From positions 1 to 24,589 of the forward strand of contig JAHBMJ010001482.1 in assembly GCA_018398765.1 (NCBI GenBank): DNA of 24,589 nt, written 5' to 3'. Numbering within the stretch: position 1 is the first letter of the stretch; each line of letters starts with the position of its first letter. The notes under the pieces were generated by a model. The model searched no databases and had not been told where the DNA came from. It saw only the letters and a program-made list of their open reading frames with translations. The translations under genes and the position numbers were made by a program. This DNA comes from Chromera velia. Taxonomy: Eukaryota; Sar; Chromeraceae. Positions 1 to 10,753 of this stretch are shown here, one piece after another.

Positions 1-650
1 CCCCCCCCGCGGGAAAAGCCGCAGAATCCCCCCTCCCCCAGGAAAAAAGCCCGGGGATGCAGCCTGTCACTTTCCGGGGCCACTGACGCACGCATACATG
101 AGGACGCGGGTTCATGCACGCTTTTCTAGACCATTTGGGGCGGGATCTTTCCGGGGCCTTTTTTTGGTGAAAGACACCTGACGCACGCACATTTGGCGCA
201 CATTCAGCCTTTCGGGACCGGCTTTTTACCGAAAGACAGCGTGTACGCACGTAGGCTGGGGTATTTCTGTTTTCTAAGTATCCCCCGCTTCGCTTTCCGG
301 GGCTATCTAATGCAAACAAGCTTGCGAACGGCCCCGGAAAGCAAGAAAAATGAGAACTTCACGATTGACGCACGCCGGCCAGCCGATCAAGCAGTTATGC
401 CGACCCCCCCCCCCATGGGAAAAGCTGCAGAACCCCCTCTCCCCCAGAAAAAAAGCCCGGGGATGCAGCTTATCGCTTTCCGGGCCTACTAACGCACACA
501 TGCATGATGACGCGGGTTTATGCACGCTTTTCTGGACCATTTGAGGCGGGATCTTTCCAGGGTCTTTTTTTGGTGAAAGACACGCATGCATGGGCTAGGG
601 TATTTTTATTTTGTAAATGCTCCCTGCTTTGCTTTTCGGGGCTATGTCTG
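1..650. repeat. Diverged direct (tandem) repeat, two copies
   Basis: Bases 1-180 recur, diverged, at about 405-590. The run ending CCCGGGGATGCAG lies at about 50-62 and again at about 456-468, an offset of 406 bases. The later part (GGGGTATTTCTGTTTTC at about 256) recurs near 594 with an offset of only about 338, so the second copy has lost roughly 65 bases. Each unit carries CTTTCCGGGGCC-type motifs, ACGCACGCA runs and a C-rich stretch. Small open frames here, including two antisense to each other, do not look like protein. The repeat is cut by the window edge, so the number of copies is unknown. It could be a local satellite or the end of a mobile element. Confidence 0.7.
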
Positions 651-1634
651 GCGCTGTAGGCCTCTACGTGGCGGCGACCGGCGGAGGATCCGGCCGCTAC
701 TATTATAATTGCTTAACGATACACCTTTATACATCACCGAAATTGTATAACCAAAAAAATCTCATTGAGCCATCGCACTGAATAGCTTAAAACCTGCCAA
801 GATGACAAAGACGTACATCTCTGAGATTTTTACATGTTCTTTAATGTTCTTCTCTGTATTTTCTGTTTTGCAGTGGTGTCAGTTACCTGATTAGTTACCC
901 TATAGTTTCTAATAGTTTCACTTTTTGTTCTTCAACCGACCATGAATTAGTTTTCCTTTGTTTCACATAGTTTCACATTTCTATACCAGTACGGAGAAAC
1001 TTACACTGTCACACATAACTTGACAGCCTGCAGACGACTTTTACTGTTTAAGTTGTATAGTTCAACTGCTTAAAGGTAGTGTGCACACTGCAGAGCAGCT
1101 CAAACCTAGTCAAACCTGTACGATTCTCTAAGTTTTACTCTCCAAGTCATATATTTAGATCAATTTATGTTTGAACAATCAGTTTTTACATACTCAATGT
1201 CTAGATCAGTGTCATGAGTCAATAACTTAAATGTTTTACGTTCCAATATACATTTAAAAGTATAGAAATTTATGTAAATTGACTATTCCAATTAATACCA
1301 TCTGAATAAGATTCATGTTACACAAGATTTAACACTCTAATTGTATGGCAATATATGGCAATGTACGCGGTACACGGTATAGTACGCCCAAATTGCGGTC
1401 CTAGTAACACGGGCCTAGTTGCAGGCCAACTTGCGGCCCAATATAAAATCATAGTTTACTAGAGAAAAATCAAATAGAACTATTTAATTTGCATTAATTT
1501 GTATATGGTAGATTATAATAGGGTTACCTTTGTTGCGAGTAGTTAAGAGAGTCTATGTATAAAAATGTTTAATAAAAGCATGAACTCTCAAGTTGACTTT
1601 TAATTACGCGAGACTGCGGACGAGCCAAACCAAT
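651..1634. other. AT-rich intergenic stretch, no gene seen
   Basis: After a short GC-rich join at about 645-690 the sequence becomes markedly AT-rich, with scattered stops in all frames and no splice-framed coding stretch that I can support. There is a duplicated ATATGGCAAT near 1347-1361. It contrasts with the roughly balanced composition of the cyclin and EF-hand loci and resembles the AT-rich block at 18750-22700. Confidence 0.6.
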
Positions 1635-1968
1635 GAAACCATGTAGTTTCGCAGTATAGGGATTCTCTTCCCCCCGCCATTTTGAAAAAACCAAGTCACG
1701 GCACCCTCGATCTCTTAATTGACTTCTATTCAAGTTGGTCCTAAAGACGGCAAAGTGAATCAAGAGACCCTGTCGATCTCTGCATACACTGCAGGAAAGC
1801 GACTGCTCTTGGGGGATCAACCGACAAGAGCTAGATGATGTGAGCCATCTCTGCACCGAACTAATTAGATTCATTGAGCTGGAGACGAAAGCATGCACGT
1901 TAGAGAGTGTCGAGGATGAGAAGGAAGAACTAAGGAAGAGTAAGACGACCAGATGGAAGGCAGGGTGA
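1635..1968 (+). pseudogene. Decayed coding region in three successive frames
   Basis: Three overlapping open stretches read like protein, each in a different frame. The first (1637-1744) contains LPPAILKKPSHGTLDLLIDF. The second (about 1716-1838) contains VGPKDGKVNQETLSISAYTA. The third (1759-1968) contains INRQELDDVSHLCTELIRF followed by an E/K-rich helix (VEDEKEELRKSK). Each is followed by a stop, and the order suggests one ancestral reading frame broken by small indels. The pattern of a short helical LLxFY segment and then a longer helical segment recalls the N-terminal part of Crypton-type tyrosine recombinases, but no catalytic residues are visible and this is only a guess. Introns could in principle explain the frame changes, but the segments overlap and no good splice sites separate the first two. 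The overlapping minus-strand frame (1569-2081) is serine-rich and looks like an antisense shadow. Confidence 0.4.
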
Positions 1969-2708
1969 TCACCAGCCAAAGAGCAAAGCCGACCGTCTGA
2001 GAGGTTTCTGAATTCTTTCCACGTACGTGCATATTCCCTTGCGTGCTCCAAAACAGGTCTGTCTGCGCACAGCTTTCCCATTCAATTCTTTTGCCCTCGT
2101 TCCTTCCTTCCTGCTTCACGGGCAGGGCTTGGTCCTGCTTCGTCTGTCTGTTTTTTCTTTAATTTTCAGTTAGTAAGCTGTTCTCATCAAAGCAAAAGAG
2201 AAAAAAAAGTGGAACGATCTTTCCTAAGGTCGTGCAATCTGTTTAGTGATACACGTACTTCCTGCTGCATGTCGTGACTTGGAACCACTTCGCTGTGCTG
2301 ATGCCATGCCATGCCTCATCAAACAGAACAGATCGACAAGGGAAAAAAGAGACAACACAACGGAAGGGATGAAACGAACAAATCAGGGCAGACATCCACA
2401 AGAGAAGAAAAGAGGGCCGCCCAGAGTGCAGACAGGACGGAGAGAAGAAAGAAGAGAGAAGAGAGGAAGCAAGCAAGGAAGGAAGGAGATGACCTCGAGA
2501 GAGGGCCTCCAGCGAGACGAGGCCGAAATGCTACTCGATCATTCGAATAGAAAGACCATCAATCAGGAAACGCAATTCAGTCAGGCAATGAAGGGAGAAA
2601 GGAGCTCGGGAGAGGTGAGGTCTAGTGGAGAGCAAACCGAATGAACGAACGAACGAACGAAAGAGAGGGTGGGTGGAAGGATTCATTGTCATCATGCGGG
2701 GGAAACAA

Positions 2709-2732
2709 TGTGTGTGTGTGTGTGTGTGTGTG
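2709..2732. repeat. (TG)n microsatellite
   Basis: About twelve TG units in a row, inside non-coding DNA. Confidence 0.9.
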
Positions 2733-3256
2733 ACTGATTTGCAATGCTGGTTCAAACTTGGGAAATCAACATGACCCCCCAAGGAGCCAGAGGGTTTGGG
2801 GGAGTTGCGAAAAAGCAATCATTCGAAAGAAAAGAGGTAACGGCACTTCGTCTTTTGTATTGTTCTGTCTTCTAACACCCTTCAGCCTTTTTTGCCGTCT
2901 GCGTGTAGACGTATTCTTCCAACTCTGTTTCCTGCATGTAAGTGAAATTACGTTGGCTTCTCTCTCCCAGGATTCCGACAGGCCGGAGCGCTCTATAACA
3001 CACTGCACTGCACAAGCAACCTACCAAGAGGAAGGGTACCCAACCACCCCTTCACATGCAGAGACAGATGGGACTGGAAGTATGAATTGGAGTTTGATGA
3101 ATTGATTGATGGACTGGATCGACGTCTCTGCTTTTGCACTTTCATCTTAACTTCAACTGGCTGAAGAGATCTCTATCCAGCTCCGGACAGCCAATATCTT
3201 CTGCTGTTCCCTTCTCTTTCCTTTATTTATGCATGAATTCAGGCCGTCTGTCTACA

Positions 3257-3266
3257 TGTGTGTGTG

Positions 3267-3320
<54 letters not shown>
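3257..3320. repeat. (TG)n microsatellite
   Basis: About thirty TG units with one TTTG interruption, followed by TCTG repeats and CCGTCTGTCTGTC. Confidence 0.9.
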
Positions 3321-3851
3321 TGCCCGTCTGTCTGTCTTCCCTTCGTTCTATTTTCCTGCAGCCTTCTCTCCTTTTCTGTTCATTCTTCCTTAGTTTCGAC
3401 AGACAGCAAGGTCGCAAACCCTCTCCAAGCTCAATGAATTAAATCCACCCGCCCCTTCCTCGAGACGTTCGAACAGGCTGGACAACGTCACAAAGATAGA
3501 GCTAGAAGCACAATGGTTTCAAGGCCAGACCAGCAAGGATGCATCCAAACTGATGGCAAGGATGGTAGGAGCGGAGGGAAAAGAAAAGACAGAAGAGAAG
3601 CGGAGGGAGGGTTCATTGGGGACGCAATACAGCAGCATGCGACGAAAAAACGGGAAGGGCGGGGGGAGGGCAACTGAAAGAAATCCGTCGGGCACCTTCT
3701 TTCATTCCGCCCTTTCCTTCTTTCATTCCTCTGCACGCAGCCCCCTCCTCCCCTCATTTGTTTTGGTAATATCGACACAAGTAACAGTCTCTGAAGAGTG
3801 GCTGTATCACTCTATTGGAGAAAGCACAAGACTCCTGGACGCACTTTCCTC

Positions 3852-4069
3852 CTATGGTGTCCGTCCTGGATGCAAACGTTGAATTTTGAGTTCATGAATT
3901 GATTTGTTCCGGTCCGCCCATTTGTCCGGCAACAAGTCTGAAAGGAGGGCAAAAGGAGAAACATCATCAAGCATGAAGCTCTGATCCGTCCTTTCCTTGC
4001 CCTCGAGGGGATTGTTGAAGAGACCGACGACCCACACGATTGACATGCGTGCGGAGTTTTCTGCTTCAA
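3852..4069 (-). CDS. Possible terminal exon, unknown protein
   Basis: The minus strand reads about 70 residues to a stop at 3852 with good codon use (mostly C or G in third position). Segments include MSIVWVVGLFNNPLEGKERT, FMLDDVSPFALLSDLLPDKW and NKSIHELK. A plausible 3' splice site (TTTGGGATTGAAGCAG) ends at about 4070, just before the protein-like part. The frame also stays open further upstream through a poor-quality segment. It lies about 490 bp beyond the cyclin stop codon on the same strand, so it could be an alternative 3' exon of that gene, the end of a separate small gene (a possible first exon, MKAVRRNIVEDGPKN, lies at about 4150-4195), or a remnant. I do not recognise the family. 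Confidence 0.35.
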
Positions 4070-4399
4070 TCCCAAACACACAGACAGAAACGTAGAAGGG
4101 CAACTTTGGTCGAATCGAATAGAATAGAAGAATGGATGGATGGAAAACGCAGCATACATTCTTTGGACCATCTTCGACAATGTTCCGTCGTACGGCCTTC
4201 ATTTTATTTTTTCTTTCTTTCTTTCTCACACCTTGACGACTGCATGTGGAAGGAATATCGGCATCTAGTCCCTCCCTCTCTGTCAAAAGAAAAGAAAGCG
4301 AAAGGGAGGCCCTGCATGTGGCAAAAAGAGAAGAGACATGCTGCTGCGGAAGAGAAGGAGAAGAGGCTAGAGGGGGGACACATCACGTACCAATCGAGC

Positions 4400-4462
4400 A
4401 AGAAAGAAAGAAAGAAAGAAAGAAAGGAAGGGAGGAAGGAATGAGGGAAGGAAAGAAAGAAG
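4400..4462. repeat. (GAAA)n / GGAA purine tract
   Basis: AAAG units repeat from about 4400, then turn into GGAAGGGAGGAAGGAATG-type sequence. It lies just beyond the cyclin stop codon, in the likely 3' untranslated or flanking DNA of that gene. Confidence 0.8.
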
Positions 4463-4557
4463 GAACAAACTCTCAGTGCAGAAAAAGCTGATGAACCGCC
4501 ATCATTCCCCACTCCCACCTCCTTTCTTCTTCTTCTCCCCAGTTGTCTCCAACCTTT

Positions 4558-7500
4558 CTACCGAGTTGTCTGCCTATCAATGAGTGATGCCCCCCTGCGG
4601 CTTGCATACTGAGGAGCCCCAGCATGGACGGCTAATCTGTGGCCTTGAGGAGAAACCCCAGCGGCCACCTTTGCACCCCGCGGCCCAACTCCAACCGCAG
4701 GGGTGGTCAGATGGCTGACGCAGCTGCTTCCGAGAGTCGAAGAACTGTCGACTTCCCGATTCCCTCCGCCTCTTCCCTTCTGCTTATCTCGGCTACCCAA
4801 CGCTAGAGCAAACCAGGCGGCCATGGGGGGCCTGTTGCCCCCATGAACTTTGTCGTGAAGAGACGAGGTGGCGGAAGAGGGGGTATGGCAGTTCTGGGGA
4901 GGGTGCGTTACGATCGGATGGGGGGCAGCCTGCCTGGAGAAAACGGAATGGAAAGCGGCAGCGTGTGCCGAAGGGGGTGCGTAGACAAGAGAATGGATCG
5001 CGTTGGGGGGGGGAACCCTGTGTTCTCTGTCGGTCATCTCCGCGAGAGAATTTGTGGGGTAATCCGCCCCTGTGCTTCCGCAAAAGCTTCCTTGGGGTGC
5101 AGACGCGTGGGATGCGTAGTTCGACAGTGGTGACCTTTCTGCAGACACATGACCTGCCCTAAACAAGTTCGCAAACGGAGTGCCGTCTGCATTTCTACTG
5201 AGGTAGGTCTCTGCCCCGCAAAAATAACTTGCGTTGAGTTCTCCTTCGTTTTCATTGCATGGGATAATTAAATTTTCGGAGCAGTGCGTGACTCCGTCTA
5301 CGGCTTGACGGTGGCTCTGGTAGCAATGCGGGTCTACAAAAGACGCATCAGACGGGGGGAGACGGACAGGATTCTTGTCACGAAAACGAATTCCCCCAGG
5401 TGTGTCAACTTGCCCCCCTGGCCATATTGCAGAATTCTCCCATCCATTGCAGCCTCTTGGGGCGGGTTGCTGAGACGTTGTCAGGATGCGATGATTGGAT
5501 TGAGAAGGACCACTCGGGGTGCCCAAATTGGGGTTTGTGCAAGGGGTAGGCACGGGGAAAGGGGGGAGCGAGGACTGGTTGCCCACACCCGGCGGTACTC
5601 CTCCCGACGAGGCTCCCGTACGCCCGCAAGAGCTTCTTGACGTGGCTAAAACAACACCCGGCCCAGTGCCCCCACTAGATCCTGAACCCCCCCCCCTGGA
5701 TGCAGTGGGTCTTCTCGAAGACAAACAAGGGCGCCCAGGAAACCCTACCCCCCCCGCCAGAGAGAGAGAAGCTGCTGCTGCTGCTGCTGCTGTATCTCTG
5801 TCCAAATGCCCCCCAGCGGACGACGACGGATCGAAAGACGAAGACGAAGAGGCGCAGCAGCCCCCCGAGAGGGAGACAGAGGAGACTTGAGGAGTGCAAC
5901 GGTGAGGATTCGAGGGCACGGGGGGACAGGCCACCCCCCGGGGTCGGGACCAACCAGCACCTACAGATGACGCTGATGGAGGATTGCAGGGAGTCACCGT
6001 GCCCTGCCCACGGTGGGCGCGTGAGCTGCCTGGTTGTCTTCCCTGGTTGTCACTTGCGGCGGCTGCCTGGCGGCTGGAGAGACCCCGGTAGGTCCCTCCC
6101 GGAGTCGGAATATTTTCGGCTTCTCCTCCTGGGTGTCGCCCGCTCAGAAGGGCGTGATCGTGCAGGTGGGCGAGTGAGAGGGAAAGAGAAGGGGGGACAG
6201 ACGGACGCGGAGGGCATCCCGCCCCCTGCACTCCTCCTCCTCCTTCTGCACCGTCAACCCTGCCGCCGCCGTGCAGATGAAGATCCCCTTCGTTCTCTGT
6301 CTGCACATGGGACCGCCGAGAAGAAGCAGAGGCCGAGGGAGGCCTGGGGTGTCCCTGAAGGGAGGGGCACTGCTGCTGCTGCTGCTGTTCTGAGGGTGCA
6401 GGCCGAAGCCTGGCGGAAAGGGACACGGCGACGCCACCAGAACAGGACCCAGAGGCTGACGCACTCGTGGGCCTGCTCACTGACAGAGAGCCGAACATTG
6501 ATGACTGCCCACTCCCCCGGCCTCCGTGGTTTCCTCCAGGGTATGCGCTGGCAGATGTGGTCGCTGTTGAATTTGAGACGGAAAAGGCGGGAACGCCCAT
6601 CCCGTTGGTGTCAGTCCTCACGCGGGCAGAACGACACCGAGCTGTATCGGAGCCTGTGTCCTGCAGAAACAATTGAACGGATGCGTGAACTTGAGTAGGT
6701 GTATATGCAATGTGTACTAGATTGATTCCATCTTTGCTGGCGAGTGCGTATGCTGGATCGAAATTGGTACTGCATGAAAGCGAAAGCAGAGGCATGATCA
6801 GTTCAAACAACAGACTTTCCTTTGTGTTTCTCGTTCTTCGTGCCTCCTGCCTTACTTGAGGGGGACAGGCAATATTTTTGACCTTCTTTTTCATTTTCTC
6901 CTTCTCTTTCTTTCTTTCCTTCCTTTCATGGTTTAATTCCCCTGGTATTGGACCATGGTTCTCATGACTGACTGTTGTCGCGTCACTCTTCAGATTCTTC
7001 ACTCTCGCCGTTCTGATGTGTCGTCCGCTTCCTCCTCCCCTCTCGGCTCTGCAAGTGTTCACACTGGATGTGGTGGTGGTGGTGGTGGTGTGGAAGTACG
7101 CGCCTGCCCCACTCTCTTCCTCCCTCACTGCATACTTGCTTCCCCCCATCACATGAAAATTGTTCCCTTGCTGTTGCTGCTGTTGTTGTTGATACCGCGA
7201 GGCATCGGACTGCGGCTTTCTCTCTCGTCTGCTGAGACTCTCCCTGTCAGCCTGCTCCAAGGCCATGCCGCGTTGGAGAGGACCCGACGCCGTGGTCGGT
7301 CGCACACGGGCGGATGCCGCAGAGGCAGGACGCGTAGAGGAAGCGAAAGTAGAACTGCCATTTCCCCGCAGAACAACGGAAGGGGCACCAGAAGGGGGAG
7401 TGTCCCTGGGTCCCCCCGCCCCGCCGCCACATCCTCCCCGACCACCGACGGTTCTGGTCCGAAGAACACCCCCTCTTGAATAATTTGAGTTGGCGCTGTT

Positions 7501-10500
7501 GTCCCCCACCGAGGATGCAACAGGGGTGGAATTTGGAGCCCCCTTGCTGCGGTGCTGCTGATGGAGACGGCCGACTAGGTCGACCACCGTGGCTTTTGAG
7601 GACACGGGAGACGCGGAGATGGTGTTTGTGTTCGTGTTCGTTCTCGAGGACGGAGAGACTCCCGGGCCCCCGGTCTGTTGGCCGTACGTTGCATTTGAAT
7701 ACGGTGCCTTCTTCAGGTTCTTGCAAGAGGCATCTGCGAGGCTTCTGCAGTCTGCTCTATCGTTTCTTTCTCTTCTGCTAGTGCAGGTGGTGCTCCGTTG
7801 AGACTGAGTAGGCCTAGAGGAAAAGGGGGCAAGGGAAGGGACGGGAATGGGCTTTGCCTCGGAGGGCAGAGAGTCTTTATCGGTGTATGTGTCTACGGAG
7901 CCCTCTCCGTCCGTCGGTGCCCTCAATGGCATGCGAGTAGGGCGCCAGGCCGAATCCAAAATCGAACAGTCACCTGCTGAAATTCGTTTGCACAACTGCA
8001 CACAGAAAGAAAGAAAGCAGAAAGAGGGAGGGAGAGAAAGAGCAGACCAAGACAGGAAGGAACGTCGAGTCGAGTCACGGTACATTTAAAGCAGCAGACA
8101 AGAAAAAGAGGGAAAAAAGAGAGAGGACAGAAGCGCTGGACGGACACAGAGAAGAACGGCACATAGAGAATCACACACAAAGCAGACAAGGACAGAAGCA
8201 GACAAATTGAAAGCAAATGAGTGAGACTGGAACACAAAAACGCCTCCCAGAAGCACGAAGGCGAAATCGGTTTCTGCTCTTAGTCACCAAAGACATAAAC
8301 TTCTCTCTGTCTCTTTCTGTATGTACGTGTGTCTACTCGGCCGTCAACAAAAGAGACCTTGCAACAGCTGTTCCCCCCCTACCCTCCCTCCCTCGCTTCT
8401 GACCGACCGACCCGACAGAATTCCACTGTAGTCAAACCCATCCGCCTGCATTCATTCGTCAATGCATTCATTAAGGAAATCATCCCGTTCAGTCCTTCTT
8501 TAATTTTCCCCCTCTTTCCTTATGCCATCACTTGCTTCCTGGCTTTGTTTCGTTCGATCGTTTTCTCCACGACACTGAGGAAAGGACCAACATGCAAGGC
8601 ACAACAGATAGGGAGTCCTGTGTACACGTACATACACACGCTCTTAGGCGCCCATGCCGACATCCACACATTCACTGACTCACTGGGTCTCATCAATTTA
8701 GTGACCTTTTAGTTTACTGTACGCAATTTACGAAGTGTTTCACCCACTTATTCACTCATTCTCTATCTCTGTCACGCACTCAGTCGCCCCACCCGCTCAC
8801 CTAATCAGCAACCCACGCATTCCCTTATTCTCTTTTGACAGGAAGCAGATTTTCTCGTTCTGCATTCTTCTTTACTCATGACAAACACAGATAGGAAGAG
8901 GGAGACACAGAAGGAAGAAAGTTCAAGTCTCTCCAGAACCTTTTCTCCATCGTTGCCTCTCTTTATCCCATTCCTTCCCGCCCCCGGTCCCTCTGTACGT
9001 GTGTGCGCGCGCCTCTGTCTGCCTCTCAGTCTACCAATTAAGCTGAGTCAGGTTTCCCCTGATCCAAACCACCCATTCACCACGCACTCGCTGACCGACC
9101 GACCGACCGACCATTCACAAATGTCCAAGAAGTCGACTTCCAGCCGCGCCAATTCGTCCTTCTGAAGGCCTCCCACCTGCACGCACCGAATCAGGTTCAG
9201 TCAACACGGATGAGAAAAAAATTTCTGAAGAGGGGAAACAAAAGAAAAGGAAAGTCTCGGAAAGGAAGCTGCGCAAAAAGGCGAAAAGAGGAAGAAAACG
9301 AACGATGGGACAGTTCACAAAAGAAAAAAACAAAAGAAGAAATGAGAGGAAGACAAAGGACATGAAAGGAAAGGAAGTTAGAGGAATGAGATGGGCCCTT
9401 TTCTGGCAGGGAAGTGTCAGCAGCTTCTTGGACCAAGGGGGATCCTTTTTTCGAATGCACAACGTCTGCGTGCGTGCATGTGTACGTTTATTCTTTGCGC
9501 TCTCATCTTTCGACAACGTGCAGTGGTAGAATCAGCAGGTCATTCTCTTTCTATTCCAATGGTCATTCTCTTTCGATTCCATTTGTTCACGTCTATGAAT
9601 AAGGCAGTCTGATGTCTCAGAAAAATAGAGAGAGAACGACAAGAAGGTCATGGAGAGCAAGCATCTTGCGAAACACTAAGGAACGGAGAAGCAAGCGAGG
9701 ATTTGAGTTCCCCTGTCGGCTGTTGGCGACTTGCCTTTGCCCAATAGTGCGTGTGGTAGTGTTTGTCGTGGAAGACTTTGTTTGTCAGCATCGCCGCCGT
9801 GATGGTCAGTCTGTGTGCAGTCAGTTTGTTGAACTGGAAGGAGCTGTGTTTGCTTGTAAGAACTCGAGATAGATAGGCGACCAGCACAATCAGTGCGCTG
9901 GCATCCAGATCTGCAGCAATGAGGAACAGAGGCTTGCACCTTTTGAAATCAACGACAGGCGAGTACCTCCACACGAAAAGATCCAACAGCTGTACTGACG
10001 CACGCCCATAGGATCTCCACAACACCATGCAGTCTTGCCGCAACGACGGAAACGTGTAGTTCGGCTGAGAGGACGACCCTCGAAACCGTCCGAACAGGGG
10101 CACACAAGTGTTGCAAACATCACAAAAATCTATGATACGCGGTAGAGGGATCGTTCCCATGTACACCTGGGGCCTTCTCTTCAAAGGGGGACGAAAGAAG
10201 AACACAGGCACAACGCAACGATTTACTTCACACACATGTGTTGTTGGAAGAGCAAGATGCACTGACTTGTGAACTTCATGATCCGGTCGGAGATGTATTC
10301 TCCGATTGGGACAGCAGGGGGGTGCTGGGAATGGAAAGGTGACATCGCGTCTGCAGGTGAACAACACATGAATGTGCGTTGCAGGGGAATATCTATACTG
10401 GAACAGGATATGTGTTGGACGTACTGGGCTTTCGACGTCGCAAGAGAAGACTGACCGTCGTCCTCTGGGGCAACGCCGAGAGAGGCCATCTTGTCTATTA

Positions 10501-10753
10501 GATTGCAGATCTTTTCAACTGTGCACCCCATGTCCTCAGCGTCTGGACATTCGACTTGCGGCAAGTGGCCGCTTTGTTTCATTAGGACAGTACTATTATT
10601 GTTGCGCAACCCTCTCGCTACCCCGGAATGCGGTGCGTTCTGAGAACCTCCGTCCGATGCATCAGAAGGGGTCTCTGTAGAAGCTTCTGAGGTTTCAGCA
10701 CGGCCTTTCCCTCCCTGCCTGCTTGAGGAGCGGGTTCTGCCGTGTAGTTCCAT
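4558..10753 (-). CDS. PHO80-like (P-type) cyclin with giant low-complexity tail, five exons
   Basis: Regulatory cyclin expected to bind and activate a cyclin-dependent kinase. Exons (minus strand): 10753-10267, 9910-9735, 9176-9112, 8445-8412 and 7995-4558. All phases join without a stop, giving about 1,399 residues. The cyclin box runs in order through VPIGEYISDRIMKFT (end of exon 1), LDASALIVLVAYLSRVLTSK and NKLTAHRLTITAAMLTNKVF then HYHTHYWAK (exon 2), VGGLQKDELARLEVDFLDIC (exon 3), RMGLTTVEFCR (exon 4) and LCKRISAG (exon 5). This matches the PHO80/cyclin-P pattern of YxxRI, NxHRLxITxxMxxxKF, YYAKVGG and LExxFL. The ATG at 10753 is chosen because the frame further upstream begins only at GTG. 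The N-terminal 130 residues and the tail are S/G/P/Q-rich. The tail has Q, A and T runs and no recognisable domain. Intron 2 has a GC donor. A 312-base in-frame segment may be a further intron. The cyclin identity is firm; the tail limits are less so. Confidence 0.9.
5771..5792 (-). repeat. CAG/GCA trinucleotide run coding polyalanine
   Basis: The same CTG/CAG repeat type is read here in the GCA register, giving a run of alanines after DRDT in the cyclin tail. Confidence 0.85.
6370..6391 (-). repeat. CAG trinucleotide run coding polyglutamine
   Basis: A nearly pure CAG run (CTG on the plus strand) encodes seven glutamines after APSE in the cyclin tail. Confidence 0.85.
6661..6972 (-). other. 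Possible retained or optional intron inside cyclin exon 5
   Basis: A 312-base stretch, divisible by three and stop-free, is bounded on the minus strand by ACAACA|GTCAGT and TTTCTGCAG|GAC. It encodes a K/E-rich then hydrophobic segment (KKEKEKMKKKVKNIACPPQ, LLFELIMPLLSLSC) unlike the S/G/P-rich sequence on either side, and its DNA is AT-richer. If spliced, the protein is about 1,295 residues; if retained, about 1,399. Confidence 0.5.
7169..7193 (-). repeat. Polyglutamine-coding CAG/CAA run
   Basis: A CAG/CAA run in the cyclin tail encodes eight glutamines after SRY. Mixed CAA and CAG codons suggest it is not a freshly expanded pure repeat. Confidence 0.85.
7996..8411 (-). other. Intron 4 of the cyclin gene
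   Basis: The donor is TGTCGG|GTCGGT and the acceptor CTGTGTGCAG|TTG, phase 0, joining VEFCR to LCKRIS. The intron is rich in pyrimidine towards its 3' end. Its 5' end is a short GTCG tandem repeat, as in intron 3 (9111-8446). Confidence 0.8.
9177..9734 (-). other. GC-AG intron (intron 2 of the cyclin gene)
   Basis: On the minus strand the donor reads AAG|GCAAGT and the acceptor GTGCGTGCAG|GTG. Joining here turns HYWAK into HYWAKVGGL, the conserved YYAKVGG block of PHO80-like cyclins, in phase 0 on both sides. Reading through the donor instead gives a 29-residue unrelated tail and a stop at 9648. Confidence 0.85.
9911..10266 (-). other. Intron 1 of the cyclin gene
   Basis: The donor is ACA A|GTCAGT and the acceptor ATTGCTGCAG|AT on the minus strand, phase 1. 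Joining gives KFTNLDASALI, the expected link between the first and second helices of the cyclin box. Confidence 0.85.

Follow-up and report, generated by a model that had tools for sequence, protein, structure and literature searches.

Passage through G1 in Toxoplasma is accomplished by TgCrk2, a kinase of the Cdk5 family, together with P-type cyclins (PMC5510908; PMC9241953). The second of these reports places P-type cyclins of Chromera velia in a tree and describes CycP2-related factors as otherwise found only in chromerids (PMC9241953). TgCycP1, TgCycP2, and Plasmodium CYC3, which are P/U cyclins of apicomplexans and chromerids, possess a PHO80-type box, as does the C. velia gene described here; we liken them by family, not by orthology. 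Yeast PHO80 (2pk9) is a 293-residue chain without a long tail, and the box of the C. velia protein was 33% identical to the PHO80 segment (alignment A1). Other cyclins have been enlarged. In cyclin B3, the extended exon precedes the cyclin box, and the title of a 2012 paper by Lozano is said to refer to new protein-protein interactions through that expanded exon. Mammalian cyclin B3 is described as approximately 3 times larger through a huge extension of this one exon, exon 8 (PMC11811201). The gene in the present study would likewise have grown via a single exon, but cyclin B3 belongs to another cyclin family and the exon concerned is its exon 8. Cyclin T1, a subunit of a transcriptional kinase, has a low-complexity region, its histidine-rich domain, reported to form condensates (PMC8339362); the tail described here differs in being rich in S, G, A, and P, with only 3.5% His.

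We analyzed a window of 24,589 nucleotides, which is an entire contig (C1480) in a 177.8 Mb assembly of 4,040 contigs. The best alpha-tubulin matches for this genome were 7tnt and 7miz, chains of Toxoplasma microtubules, consistent with a lineage close to apicomplexans, and a search for the plastid photosystem family PF00124 gave no match. Five exons on the minus strand (10753..4558) gave a spliced product of 4,065 nt and 1,354 residues with one terminal stop (Table 1). Donors were GT for introns 1, 2, and 4 and GC for intron 3, and the acceptor was AG in all 4. Retention of intron 1, translated as an alternative, gave a product of 1,389 residues; both paralogues described below also have an intron near the start of the box, but at a codon other than that of intron 1. 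Across the splice alternatives, protein length was 1,289 to 1,389 residues, outside the 200 to 400 residues that a preliminary description of this DNA gave for such cyclins, a range that is common but not defining.

Table 1. Features of the window gene, and hand models of its 2 paralogues on contigs C21 and C64 (paralogue positions are those of their own contigs).
Feature	Positions	Strand	Description
Exon 1	10456..10753	(-)	ATG at 10753; S/G-rich N-terminus; residues 1-99 and one base of codon 100; placed by frame and GTCAGT donor
Intron 1	10351..10455	(-)	105 nt, stop-free, multiple of 3
Exon 2	10267..10350	(-)	Opening part of cyclin box; within the PF08613 match, residues 97-209
Intron 2	9911..10266	(-)	356 nt, GTCAGT...CTGCAG
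Exon 3	9735..9910	(-)	Cyclin box core; by itself above the Pfam cut-off
Intron 3	9177..9734	(-)	558 nt, GC donor (GCAAGT); position and phase 0 match both paralogues (column 126)
Exon 4	9108..9176	(-)	VGGLQKDELARLEVDFLDICEWS, cyclin box end; donor inside a 4-nt tandem repeat (9093-9112)
Intron 4	7996..9107	(-)	1,112 nt, GTCGGT...GTGCAG; shares a codon with an intron of the C64 paralogue (column 149)
Exon 5	4558..7995	(-)	Final box positions, then low-complexity tail; stop TAG 4560-4558; supported by 1,145 open codons and shuffles
Suspected intron within exon 5	6661..6855	(-)	195 nt, stop-free, frame-keeping; GTAAGG/TTTCTGCAG ends; suspected from GC and hydrophobicity
C21 cyclin	27057-30485	(+)	Seven exons, 323 residues; hand model
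C64 cyclin	24058-20200	(-)	Six exons, 686 residues from first ATG in the open frame, 587 from second; hand model

Two observations concern the assembly and the introns. The end of contig C1372 (L020:5588-9961) matched window positions 304-4683 at 99.8%, with the match stopping short of window positions 1-303, and the 2 contigs probably adjoin, judging from this overlap. Ten of the 15 introns modeled in the 3 cyclin genes, the suspected exon 5 intron excluded, started with GTC (GTCAGT, GTCGGT, GTCTGT, or GTCAGC), and several of these continued into GTCG or GTCA repeats (window positions 10455, 10266, and 9107 are among the GTC donors). C is an unusual base at intron position +3; donors were picked by frame and homology, so the excess of GTC donors is only a lead.

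Identity of the gene as a P-type (PHO80-like) cyclin is firm. When the spliced protein was searched against Pfam, PF08613 (PHO80-type cyclin) matched residues 97-209 with an E-value of 4.5e-24 and 86 bits against a cut-off of 21, covering model positions 36-148 of 149, and was the sole family matched by the first 300 residues at E up to 1. PF00134 (Cyclin_N) was not reported for this protein at E up to 1, and is reported for C21 and C64. The best solved relative was yeast PHO80 (E 1.5e-12, residues 96-213), with PCL10 next (0.0033). These searches bear out the PHO80-like cyclin proposed in the preliminary description. That description also spread a box of about 110 residues over 5 exons; the box instead begins close to the end of exon 1 and continues through exons 2 to 4, and exon 5 contributes at most the final positions. 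The expectation that gene callers would miss the cyclin was not supported, as exon 3 alone scored 32.2 bits against the 21-bit cut-off in a six-frame PF08613 search that ignored introns.

A PF08613 search of the assembly, in which the best candidates were scored, yielded matches on at least 2 further contigs, C21 and C64. Scores for PF08613 were 136.4 bits for C21, 117.4 for C64, and 87.2 for the window gene; to PHO80, the window box scored 50.8 bits compared to 94.7 for C21. The window box has a one-residue insertion, and Ser replaces the Asp of the YxDR found in C21 and C64. Twenty columns were invariant among the window protein, the 2 paralogues, and PHO80, including K73 and E100 (first-row numbering), which we take to be the Lys/Glu pair that makes the cyclin-CDK contact, as known from cyclin A. 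The lower PF08613 score marks the window protein as divergent within the PHO80 type. The Cyclin_N family gave 9 matches on 6 other contigs among the best candidates listed, and these are other cyclins.

Both paralogues also have low-complexity extensions. The last exon of C21 is a 147-residue tail rich in S, G, and A. C64 has 398 residues before its conserved part (299 from the second ATG) and 127 after it; the 398 residues lie in one exon (24058-22766), and 70% of them are S/G/P/Q/A/T/H/N. The C21 gene also contains local duplications. An 87-nt unit with an exon end is tandemly repeated (L021:8768-9028; 2 full copies 98% alike, and a third that matches over its first half only), and another stretch, 45 nt long and with an exon start, is present twice, 81 nt apart (L021:9600-9725). 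To judge by these repeats, this gene may have undergone duplication of small intron-like units.

Exon 5 is 3,438 nt, or 1,145 codons and a stop, in agreement with the very long low-complexity exon (approximately 1,130 codons) in the preliminary description. A frame of this length could be noncoding and open by chance, given that the exon 5 G+C of 0.587 lowers stop density and that an antisense frame of 339 codons is also present at 5679-6695 (+). However, over 1,000 dinucleotide-preserving shuffles read in 6 frames, the longest frame had a median of 214 codons and a maximum of 516, and the other 5 frames of the same stretch contain 22, 24, 28, 30, and 32 stops. We regard a chance frame as extremely improbable. 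The antisense frame over the tail falls within the shuffle range. A survey of 74.6 kb (the window, 10 kb of the C1372 end, and 20 kb around each of the 2 paralogues) found the tail frame to be the longest (1,175 codons stop to stop) of 30 frames of at least 200 codons, followed by the N-terminal exon of C64 (514), in a sample that is small, chosen around cyclins, and with approximately 4.4 kb counted twice via the contig overlap. The 30 frames are what is left of 36 stop-to-stop frames listed after subtraction of 6 over a 2.0 kb N run that closes the C21 stretch.

The PF08613 match ends at the junction of exons 4 and 5, and exon 5 has almost no homology to cyclins. Because the match stops there, membership of exon 5 in the cyclin gene rests on gene structure. 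In the box alignment, intron 3 has the identical place and phase in all 3 compared genes (column 126). Intron 4 and the final C64 intron fall in one codon (column 149), with phases one nucleotide apart, and the exon lengths compared at this site are 69 nt in the window gene and 68 nt in C64. This position is common to only 1 of the 2 paralogues, as C21 is without the intron. Introns 1 and 2 are near, not at, paralogue intron positions, and an intron at column 101 that is common to C21 and C64 is absent from the window gene.

Exon 4 has 2 candidate donors 4 nt apart (exon end at 9112 or 9108), and the second alone leads into the tail frame. Joining at 9108 restores the aromatic-x-Leu end of the box, which reads EWSL in the window gene, DYRL in C64, and GYQL in C21. 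The joined box scored 87.2 bits with the 9108 donor compared to 85.1 with the alternative, a small difference. As alternatives to the main model, we translated and weighed the products of splicing from 9112, of reading through exon 4, and of retaining intron 1.

The first 2 of these bear on the scenario in which the cyclin stops shortly beyond exon 4 and a separate gene contains exon 5. Read-through of unspliced exon 4 would give 228 residues and the 9112 donor 231, both of ordinary cyclin size; the Pfam match finishes at exon 4, and intron 4, at 1,112 nt, could hold a putative promoter for a second gene. However, the aromatic-x-Leu that ends the box is missing from the 9112 form and has Val for Leu in the read-through form, and the sole in-frame ATG ahead of exon 5 (8085) lies inside intron 4, immediately upstream of the pyrimidine-rich end of that intron. 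Further, at the homologous junction in C64, the box is joined to an exon that completes the box and then becomes a Q/S/G-rich tail of approximately 127 residues. We consider 2 separate genes improbable. The C64 intron in the junction codon, together with the tail exon that finishes the box, is the best evidence that exon 5 is part of the cyclin gene, and supports it indirectly. Membership as claimed in the preliminary description thus gains indirect support from the splice frame, the same-codon intron of C64, and the aromatic-x-Leu restored across the junction, and the tail is likely joined to the cyclin box. A further scenario, to which we give very little credence, is that the 4-nt tandem repeat where exon 4 ends acts as a double donor toggling the tail, with 9112 giving a 231-residue short cyclin and 9108 a long form of approximately 1,290 residues. 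If so, a 4-nt shift of donor would determine whether the CDK partner is plain or tethered.

The length of the long form assumes removal of an intron within the tail. GC content at 6855-6661 was 0.446 compared to 0.587 for exon 5 and 0.450-0.511 for the introns, and the lowest GC among other 195-nt windows of exon 5 (steps of 3, clear of 6855-6661) was 0.451. The translation of this segment (approximately 65 residues, 590-654) was 37% hydrophobic (I, L, V, M, F, Y, W, C), while other 65-residue windows had a maximum of 32% and a mean of 19%. Its S/G/P/Q/A/T/H/N share was low, not the lowest, with 1.3% of windows as low. Removal of the segment keeps the frame and leaves a 1,289-residue protein with a 1,080-residue tail. 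Position arithmetic excluded a shorter, 86-nt intron (6855-6770), removal of which would disrupt the frame. The tail probably contains the 195-nt intron. The tail of more than 1,100 residues in the preliminary description stands in the 1,354-residue model and falls to 1,080 if the suspected intron is removed.

With the suspected intron removed, the tail consists of S (14%), G (12%), A (10%), P (9%), R (8%), and T (7%), and has a net charge of +45. It contains runs of Q8, T7, Q6, S5, and A7; at the codon level, one run is a pure (CAG)6, others are near-pure ACC or GCA triplets, and the Q8 and S5 are of mixed codons. By charge-hydropathy, the tail scored -0.01, at the disorder boundary, and the box +0.17; 5 of the 9 tail windows were below zero, one was at zero, and 3 were above, the highest being +0.17 (window labelled 810). 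Disorder of the tail is thus suggested, not firmly, being plausible by composition and borderline by charge-hydropathy.

Relatives of the tail were searched for at the DNA and protein levels. In its own genome, none was found among the best candidates scored but the tail itself and the overlapping C1372 end, in a DNA search that skips simple repeats, and none was found in Pfam, PDB, or NCBIfam, the last a library of bacterial and archaeal proteins. Ten other frames of the window had 0 matches to Pfam at the curated cut-off, and the window was without a match to Rfam at the gathering score.

The tail could have a function as a scaffold or in regulation, whether by recruiting substrates, by forming condensates, or by setting the time at which the cyclin is destroyed. 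Its length is suggestive of such a role, and the condensates reported for the histidine-rich domain of cyclin T1 (PMC8339362) provide a precedent, as do the interactions named in the title of the Lozano paper on cyclin B3. However, compared to 2,000 shuffles, CDK-site, docking, and destruction motifs were not enriched: SP/TP (16 vs 21.0 expected), RxL (5 vs 6.6), and RxxL (4 vs 5.1) were below expectation, and KEN was 0. SxxE/D (20 vs 15.4) and RG (14 vs 10.3) were in slight excess (P approximately 0.13). A lysine-rich cluster, K[KR]x[KR], favors function (2 vs 0.3 expected, P 0.03 to 0.04), being the sole motif of 11 below 0.05, although it would fail correction for 11 motifs; the KERKKEKEKMKKKVK cluster could be a putative nuclear-import signal. 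The searches detected no relative by which to gauge constraint on the tail, which also weighs against a functional tail. A regulatory role has no support yet, and we consider this scenario unlikely, if somewhat less so than that of 2 separate genes. As for the disordered scaffold or regulatory tail suggested in the preliminary description, disorder remains plausible, but no regulatory motif clearly stands out.

Taken together, the account that we favor with fair confidence is that one nuclear gene encodes a divergent P-type cyclin and that its last exon has expanded into a tail of approximately 1,080 residues that is probably disordered and little constrained; our confidence is lowered slightly because the disorder measure is only borderline. 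The box would bind and activate a CDK5/PHO85-type kinase, by analogy to Toxoplasma CycP1 with Crk2. The last exon may have grown by low-complexity and triplet-repeat expansion, its counterpart in C64 completing the box and adding a tail of approximately 130 residues; we infer expansion because the runs include the pure (CAG)6 and the near-pure ACC and GCA triplets and because no relative was detected in the genome. The tail would be under little sequence constraint and at most tether or localize the kinase complex, although its sequence is mostly heterogeneous, so that a function retains some plausibility.

The approximately 300-400 low-complexity residues ahead of the box in C64, and the similar single-exon expansion described for cyclin B3 (PMC11811201), weaken the view that only this gene reaches such length. 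Since cyclins overgrown through one exon are known elsewhere, the window gene is not a new kind of protein; it is the extreme of a pattern in its own paralogues. The usual G1 machinery is reported to have been replaced in Toxoplasma by a P-type cyclin with its kinase (PMC5510908), and because they took over there, the P-type cyclins of free-living relatives bear on the origin of that arrangement. The window gene and its 2 paralogues indicate that long low-complexity extensions occur in P-type cyclins outside parasites also, and the comparison of their exons offers a concrete route to testing whether these extensions do anything.
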